64,000 nucleotides of DNA, from contig NZ_CP009354.1 in the NCBI RefSeq assembly GCF_000772105.1, positions 1,612,001-1,676,000 of the forward strand, given 5' to 3'. The notes beneath the pieces are model-generated. The model was not told the origin of the DNA. It searched no databases and saw only the letters and a list, made by a program, of their open reading frames with translations. The position numbers were made by a program, and so were the translations under genes. This DNA is from Vibrio tubiashii ATCC 19109 (GTDB lineage Bacteria; Pseudomonadota; Gammaproteobacteria; Enterobacterales; Vibrionaceae). This document shows positions 24,215 through 24,737 of the stretch, piece after piece (the first letter of the stretch is position 1; each line of letters begins with the position of its first letter).

Positions 24215-24543
24215 CTAATTTAATAGGTAAACTTTAGATTCATTAGGGGCGCTAGGAGTCGTATCATCGATAAAAACCAGTAGGCAGTATTTCTCAGAAC
24301 GTCCTTCAAACCAATCGTGGTGTGAGCCATCAATTTGGATAAGTTTGCCTAAACAGTCTCTGCGATAACGGGGTTGGTAAACGCGTGGCTGATGTTGCGA
24401 AGGCGGCGTTCGCGAACATCTTGCAGCACTTTAAAACGATTAATGTTTCGGTCACTCATTGGAATTAGCATCGGTTAAGATCCTCAAAGCTCAGCGTGTT
24501 CATTAAGCATAAGAGGACATTTTAAAATTGCTCAAACCGGACA
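24215..24543 (-). pseudogene. Relic of an ISNCY/IS1202-type transposase, next to dif
   Basis: On the minus strand a start at 24471 reads MLIPMSDRNINRFKVLQDV and on to RERRLRNI, then the frame is lost. In another frame, about 24380 to 24235, it reads PRYRRDCLGKLIQIDGSHHD then WFEGRSEKYCLLVFIDDTT, the DDE-core start of ISNCY transposases. Roughly 90 residues between the two parts are deleted with a frameshift, and the C-terminal half is gone. The likely IS end is TGTCCGG at 24543-24537, 24 bases before dif. The fragment cannot make active transposase. Confidence 0.75.
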
Positions 24544-24567
24544 TTACAACTTTGCTCTTACATGCTA

Positions 24568-24595
24568 AGTGCGCATTATGTATATTATGTTAAAT
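24568..24595 (+). other. dif: dif site of chromosome I (XerCD recombination)
   Basis: XerC arm AGTGCGCATTA, six-base centre TGTATA, XerD arm TTATGTTAAAT. It differs from E. coli dif only in one outer base and one centre-proximal base of the XerC arm and, as I recall, is identical to V. cholerae dif1. Chromosome dimers are resolved here under FtsK control. No second copy occurs in the window, so nothing is visibly integrated at the site. Confidence 0.95.
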
Positions 24596-24690: not shown

Positions 24691-24737
24691 CTAATAAACA
24701 GTATTTATAATCTATCGATTCTAATACTGTTTATTAG
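24691..24737. repeat. Perfect 15-bp inverted repeat beside dif
   Basis: Arms CTAATAAACAGTATT (24691-24705) and AATACTGTTTATTAG (24723-24737) with a 17-base AT-rich spacer. It lies 96 bases from dif and seven bases beyond the hydrolase stop. There is no T-run for terminator action on either strand. Confidence 0.7.

Follow-up and report, generated by a model that had tools for sequence, protein, structure and literature searches.

Beside the dif site of chromosome 1 of Vibrio tubiashii ATCC 19109 lie the remains of a transposase gene, raising the questions of what kind of mobile element was inserted here, where it ends and whether it arrived by targeting of the Xer recombination site. An original prediction made within the window (the whole stretch of 64,000 nucleotides analysed here) described a decayed IS1202/ISNCY-type insertion sequence (IS), placed its end at a TGTCCGG motif 24 bases from the XerC arm of dif and ascribed it to a Xer-targeting subgroup with target repeats of 24-29 bases. 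It also proposed to search related strains for an intact copy or a long duplication at dif. Intact copies are present at dif in related Vibrio; where a duplication accompanies them, it is 5-6 bp long.

The relic and the dif site of chromosome 1

Comparison with the intact Vibrio IS at locus L007 by blastn and tblastn and with the NCBIfam model NF033594 (ISNCY family transposase) confirmed a decayed IS1202/ISNCY element beside dif (Table 1). As had been predicted, the start of the transposase and the DDE entry motif IQIDGSHHDWFEG are present in different frames with an internal deletion between them, and both remnants are located on the minus strand pointing away from dif. The DDE remnant is identical to the intact Vibrio transposase at 44 of 55 positions and was recovered with E 5.6e-25 upon tblastn searching of the whole genome with this transposase as query. 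A 44-amino acid piece of it, i.e., a fragment, matches NF033594 with 50.5 bits compared to a cut-off of 250, and the intact relative transposase scores 505 bits. The N-terminal remnant gave no NCBIfam match, and Pfam was empty for both transposase remnants.

Table 1. Features of the relic and of the adjoining dif site, in window coordinates; residues are those of the L007 transposase.
Feature	Position	Strand	Basis
Decayed IS1202-family (ISAjo2-type, ISNCY) insertion sequence, as judged by similarity	24242-24562	-	blastn and tblastn comparison with the intact IS at L007 (Vibrio)
Terminal inverted repeat of the left end, TGTAAGAGCAAAGTTGTAATGTCCGG; TGT at its outer edge, 24562-24560	24537-24562	-	dif-side ends of relatives and alignment with the intact IS
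Subterminal repeat, outer copy GGACATTACAACTTTGCT	24539-24556	+	read from the sequence; layout as in PMC10132070
Subterminal repeat, inner copy GGACATTTTAAAATTGCT, separated from the outer one by 6 bp	24515-24532	+	read from the sequence
Transposase N-terminal remnant MLIPMSDRNINRFKVLQDVRERRLRNISHA, residues 9-38	24382-24471	-	tblastn E 7e-9 (against the short window segment alone)
DDE-domain remnant PRVYQPRYRRDCLGKLIQIDGSHHDWFEGRS..., other frame, residues 129-183	24242-24406	-	tblastn E 6e-28 (against the short window segment alone); NF033594 E 1.7e-13
TGCTA, 5-bp gap separating the IS from the XerC arm; in intact relatives, the target duplication lies here	24563-24567		
dif of chromosome 1, AGTGCGCATTATGTATATTATGTTAAAT	24568-24595	+	intact; pattern search
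dif parts: XerC arm AGTGCGCATTA, centre TGTATA, XerD arm TTATGTTAAAT	within 24568-24595	+	

On the nucleotide level (blastn), window positions 24562-24425 align to positions 1-136 of the 1502-bp L007 IS and 24401-24257 to positions 455-599. The window copy has lost an internal stretch of about 300 bp and everything beyond IS position ~600, including the right end. As this end is gone, its own target duplication, a second TGCTA, cannot be assigned. No intact copy was found in the source genome, where at E 1e-10 or better the transposase search matched the window remnant alone. Near its end, the window copy carries the subterminal repeat in an outer and a second, internal copy; this repeat is probably the transposase-binding site, resembling the second site described in PMC10132070.

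The dif pattern has one match within the window, with an expectation by chance of 0. It is located at 1,636,568 on contig C1 (3,294,490 bp), near the contig midpoint; contig C2 (1,766,582 bp) has a dif at 897,213 with 3 mismatches to the pattern. The cumulative GC skew, calculated in 4-kb windows, has its maximum at about 44 kb of the window, approximately 20 kb to the right of dif and not at dif. An AT-rich inverted repeat, CTAATAAACAGTAT...ATACTGTTTATTAG, is found at 24691-24737, about 95 bp to the right of dif and just beyond the stop of a convergent gene, and variants of it with matching changes on both arms occur at a similar position in a few of the 21 further dif loci examined, most clearly at L009, L028 and L029.

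Position of the IS end and target duplications in intact relatives

In the relatives from the genus, the sequence upstream of the transposase start passes through a GGACATTTTAAAATTGCTCAAACCGGACATTACTAAATTGCTCTA-like stretch and stops at ACA, which is TGT on the transposase strand. When the dif-side ends were aligned, most relatives showed ACA followed by 5 variable bp and the XerC arm; the exceptions are the end relics L006 and L020, to which no dif is adjacent, and L005 with a gap of 10 bp. Since the conserved end of the relatives extends 19 bp past TGTCCGG to the TGT, the true end of the window copy is at the corresponding TGT, leaving 5 bp to the XerC arm. The TGTCCGG motif does exist at 24537-24543 (minus strand) with 24 bases between it and the arm, but, on the evidence of these alignments, the IS does not end with this motif, which forms the inner border of the terminal repeat.

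The intact element at L007 has TGT and ACA at its ends and is flanked on both sides by TAGGA, one copy of which forms the 5 bp between IS and dif. At 17 of 32 Vibrio loci a perfect duplication of 5-6 bp was found, one copy of which occupies the interval that separates the IS from the XerC arm. In one of these, L231, the duplication spans a composite of 2133 bp; the 16 others, simple copies, have lengths of 1502-1549 bp. The remaining 15 of the 32 loci lack a clean duplication, showing either none or a spurious pair. Target repeats of the predicted 24-29 bases were thus not borne out, as intact Vibrio copies have 5 or 6 bp where a repeat is present. In the intact relatives both ends are present, with terminal inverted repeats matching at 13-18 of 26 positions; of these ends the window copy retains the left one.

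For the spacing, 227 genomes of the genus were searched with a pattern consisting of the IS end, a free gap of 0-30 bp and the XerC arm; the end part of this pattern was drawn from loci already seen and the gap was left free. It yielded 76 matches in 52 of the 227 genomes, on both large replicons, with a spacing of 5 bp in 70, 6 bp in three and 4, 10 and 15 bp in one each, and the reversed pattern gave 0 matches in the same 227 genomes. Independently of the end pattern, transposase matches were obtained in 82 of the 227 genomes, a count that includes long-TSD (target duplication) relatives of about 30% identity. From the matches listed, 32 Vibrio loci were picked by hand for their transposase and not for a dif, some of them sharing a genome, and the left end could be defined in 31 of them. 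In these 31 copies, the best site resembling dif is 5 bp away in 29, 6 bp in one and 4 bp in one; it scores at least 17/22 in 27 copies and 14-16/22 in the other four, which also show the 5-bp distance. On the right side of the same 31 copies, the control found none (0/31).

A wider set comprised the best 80 of 319 relatives in named genomes, of which 75 have at least 160 bp of upstream DNA. A dif-like site of at least 18/22 is present upstream in 49 and absent in 26 of these 75, and it is present downstream in one. For the 49 loci with an upstream site, 41 end motifs were found, at a distance of 5 bp (34), 6 bp (5), 7 bp (1) and 15 bp (1).

Family placement and the origin of the relic

A tree of 39 transposases was calculated, in which the named reference elements are the plasmid-annotated ISLad2, ISKpn21 and ISEsa1; the window pieces were too short and were left out, the bootstrap was not settled, and ISKpn21 and ISEsa1 form long branches. 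The Vibrio elements with 5-bp duplications and one Enterovibrio element form a clade (support 99/97), which nests together with ISLad2, ISKpn21, ISEsa1 and Acinetobacter elements in a group of 34. This group is split with 100/100 from Vibrio elements with a 510-amino acid transposase and TSDs of 16-18 bp. The DDE piece of the window shares 78-88% identity with the Vibrio 5-bp elements (50-55 amino acids), compared to about 42% with the long-TSD group, and 84% with a clade with 15-bp spacing (43 amino acids). The N-terminal piece (30 amino acids) shows 57-67% identity to most Vibrio 5-bp elements and 33% to the 15-bp clade. Because the DDE piece by itself is also close to the 15-bp clade (84%), the subgroup within the ISAjo2-like elements was assigned from the N-terminal piece, the spacing and the end sequence. 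By sequence, the window element is a decayed member of the IS1202 family, ISAjo2 subgroup.

As members of this subgroup PMC10132070 names ISAjo2, ISAba71, ISAba32, ISKpn21, ISLad2 and ISSen13, and it describes for Acinetobacter how they hunt dif and pdif sites at 5 bp, including the chromosomal dif. The subgroup traits compared here are an imperfect terminal inverted repeat of 24-26 bp, TGT/ACA ends, a TSD of 3-5 bp, a distance of 3-6 bp from the XerC arm and a glutamine in the seventh position after the catalytic glutamate. By eye, the glutamine is in this position in the L007 transposase (E-RANLTL-Q); the region is missing in the window copy. The Vibrio elements share with the subgroup as described in PMC10132070 an ISNCY/TnsB-like DDE transposase, the TGT/ACA ends, the subterminal repeat, a length of about 1.5 kb, the 5-bp TSD, the distance of 5 bp from the XerC arm, the orientation with the left end beside dif and the acceptance of a chromosomal dif. 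They differ in their Vibrio host and in the intact transposase, which shares 55-58% identity with those from Acinetobacter, and the window copy differs in being decayed. ISLad2, which lies in the same large clade, is 64% identical to the Vibrio transposase but stems from enterobacterial plasmids and has a reported TSD of 4 bp (PMC10132070). TnpAjo2, a relative of the window transposase, was already modelled structurally (PMC10132070). The tables of PMC10132070 contain no Vibrio dif-targeting member and assign ISVbsp4 and ISVisp7 to the long-TSD group; in the titles and abstract starts among the open-licence PMC matches listed, no description of a dif-targeting IS in Vibrio was found. Compared to the published geometry of the ISAjo2 subgroup, it is mainly the host and the prevalence that are new; otherwise the element is ordinary for its subgroup.

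The window copy is very probably the fossil of an ISAjo2-subgroup element of the IS1202 family that landed at the dif of chromosome 1, by a mechanism that we infer to involve the XerC arm. Following this, the TnsB-like DDE transposase would recognise the arm to which XerC is bound in a dif-like site, a contact also proposed in PMC10132070, and would cut the two strands at staggered positions, nicking one where the XerC arm ends on its outer side and the other at a distance of 5 bp. The IS would end up in one orientation only, 5 bp from the arm and with the transposase pointing away, and dif would stay untouched. A later internal deletion and the loss of the right part would then have killed the copy, leaving the dif-proximal end. 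In essence, the predicted fossil of targeting on a chromosomal dif was upheld. The finding extends the hunting of chromosomal dif sites by transposons from Acinetobacter, plus enterobacterial plasmid sites, to Vibrio.

That the IS ends at TGTCCGG, 24 bp from dif, and belongs to a Xer-targeting subgroup with TSDs of 24-29 bp is extremely unlikely. The motif opens with TGT, its distance from dif is indeed 24 bases, and a clade with 15-bp TSDs abutting dif exists elsewhere; however, 19 of the 24 bases between TGTCCGG and dif are the end conserved among the relatives, and the intact copies with 5-6-bp duplications already refute this position of the end. Moreover, the long-TSD subgroup is described in PMC10132070 as having no dif targets, and the Vibrio elements that represent it (L232-L251; 1742-1744 bp, 510-amino acid transposase, TSD 16-18 bp) showed no convincing dif at 20 loci, not all of them independent, the best score being 14/22. 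Their membership in this subgroup is inferred from length and TSD. The long-TSD elements (IS1202, ISVisp7, ISVbsp4, ISShha1 in PMC10132070), taken here as those with TSDs of 16-28 bp and a transposase of that clade, belong to the same family, have TGT ends and occur in Vibrio, but those from Vibrio are 28-29% identical to the 5-bp elements. The relic was thus wrongly attributed to a long-repeat subgroup, being ISAjo2-type. Insertion near dif at random, which a single locus on its own could reflect, has a practically negligible probability and was already refuted, given that spacing and orientation are fixed in 29 of the 31 transposase-chosen copies and that 5 bp recurs in 70 of the 76 pattern matches.

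An origin of the dif-proximal sequence from a Xer-integrating phage (with a gene start M-S-G-L-S-N-F-K-M-S-S), in which only the transposase pieces would be IS, was prompted by a second IS-end relic in the source genome. This paralogue on C2 (884810-884893, L003 6811-6894) is 89% identical to its window counterpart (24513-24595), has the same TGCTA and opens into a phage-like DUF3653 ORF. Its distance to the C2 dif is 12.3 kb and its surroundings contain phage-like ORFs; next to it, visual inspection shows a XerC arm, followed by a centre of 7 bp and a XerD arm that is imperfect. Against a phage speaks that the same kind of end is found on intact transposase genes at many loci, that the terminal-repeat architecture and the duplications fit an IS, and that the C2 ORF would most simply read through an IS-end relic. 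The phage origin is accordingly very improbable and was dropped, as intact IS copies carry the same end. In Vibrio, dif and dif-like sites are also used by Xer-dependent phages, i.e., filamentous phages and NO16/Asemoviridae (PMC9966536), but these recombine at dif via XerCD, whereas the IS transposes beside dif and leaves it intact.

The same 5 bp beside the XerC arm in the end relics of both large replicons were likewise observed in G130, G011 and G569; segments composed of IS and dif may move between replicons by Xer recombination or with Xer phages. Records of Vibrio cyclitrophicus filamentous phages (PQ189311, i.e., L136, and similar matches) terminate within a transposase of the window IS type, which suggests that the boundaries of these records took in an IS adjoining dif.

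Spacing variants, stacked insertions and the long-TSD elements

Besides the 5-bp elements, ISAjo2-like elements with a spacing of 15 bp from a dif-like XerC arm were found at L084 (identical to L227), L226, L072, L074, L083 and L086, in Moritella and also in Shewanella and an Aliivibrio MAG. At two independent Moritella loci, L084 and L226, a perfect 15-bp TSD abuts the XerC arm; none was found at the other four. This breaks the link of long TSDs with the lack of dif targeting as published in PMC10132070 and is the part of the results that a specialist would not expect. At L078, which belongs to the 15-bp clade, the best dif-like site (17/22) is 5 bp away and no TSD was found; in the related pair L223 and L225, the duplications measure 16 bp and a dif-like site is absent.

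Sites with a 7-bp centre are used at nearly the same spacing from the XerC arm (L202 at 5 bp, L218 at 4 bp, L037 at 5 bp). In genome G196 (C1; L267, L222), an IS of the 5-bp type lies inside the 15-bp spacer of an IS of the 15-bp type, in the order dif-like site (18/22), CGCGC, IS, CGCGC, 10 bp and 15-bp-type IS. The right flank of the outer element does not repeat the left 15-mer, which counts against the simple reading. At L117, L209, L215 and L230, the right end and the TSD are directly followed by another TGT IS end, head to tail. Successive insertions thus seem to pile up at one dif with the newest nearest, the order following from the geometry.

These observations might be united by a ruler that is placed on the XerC arm, a reading to which we give an even chance. 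One nick would always be made at the outer edge of the arm and the TSD length would equal the distance to it, mostly about 5 bp and 15 bp, one helical turn more, in the nested Moritella/Shewanella/Aliivibrio clade. The arm and not the whole dif would be read, since sites with 7-bp centres are also used, and dif would be a landing pad stacking IS elements with the newest nearest, the window relic being the last layer. The 7-bp-centre sites, the 15-bp clade and the nesting in G196 fit such a ruler; L078 and the pair L223/L225 argue against a uniform rule within the 15-bp clade. The 5-bp and 15-bp duplications, the 7-bp centres and the stacks constitute natural experiments on how a DDE transposase, acting alone, recognises a site to which a tyrosine recombinase is bound.

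Finally, the long-TSD Vibrio elements seemingly have a specific target of their own. In 17 of the 20 loci, some of which share flanks, GGGGCA or TGTCCA is located directly to the left of the TSD (by eye), usually after a TAAC-like stretch, and subsets of L232-L251 have up to about 100 bp of upstream sequence in common. As the motif by the TSD resembles an attC box, integron attC was considered as target and rejected, because no second attC half stood out. A pattern of the motif drawn from these loci occurs eight times in four of the six genomes searched, and seven of the eight occurrences lie beside the long-TSD IS.
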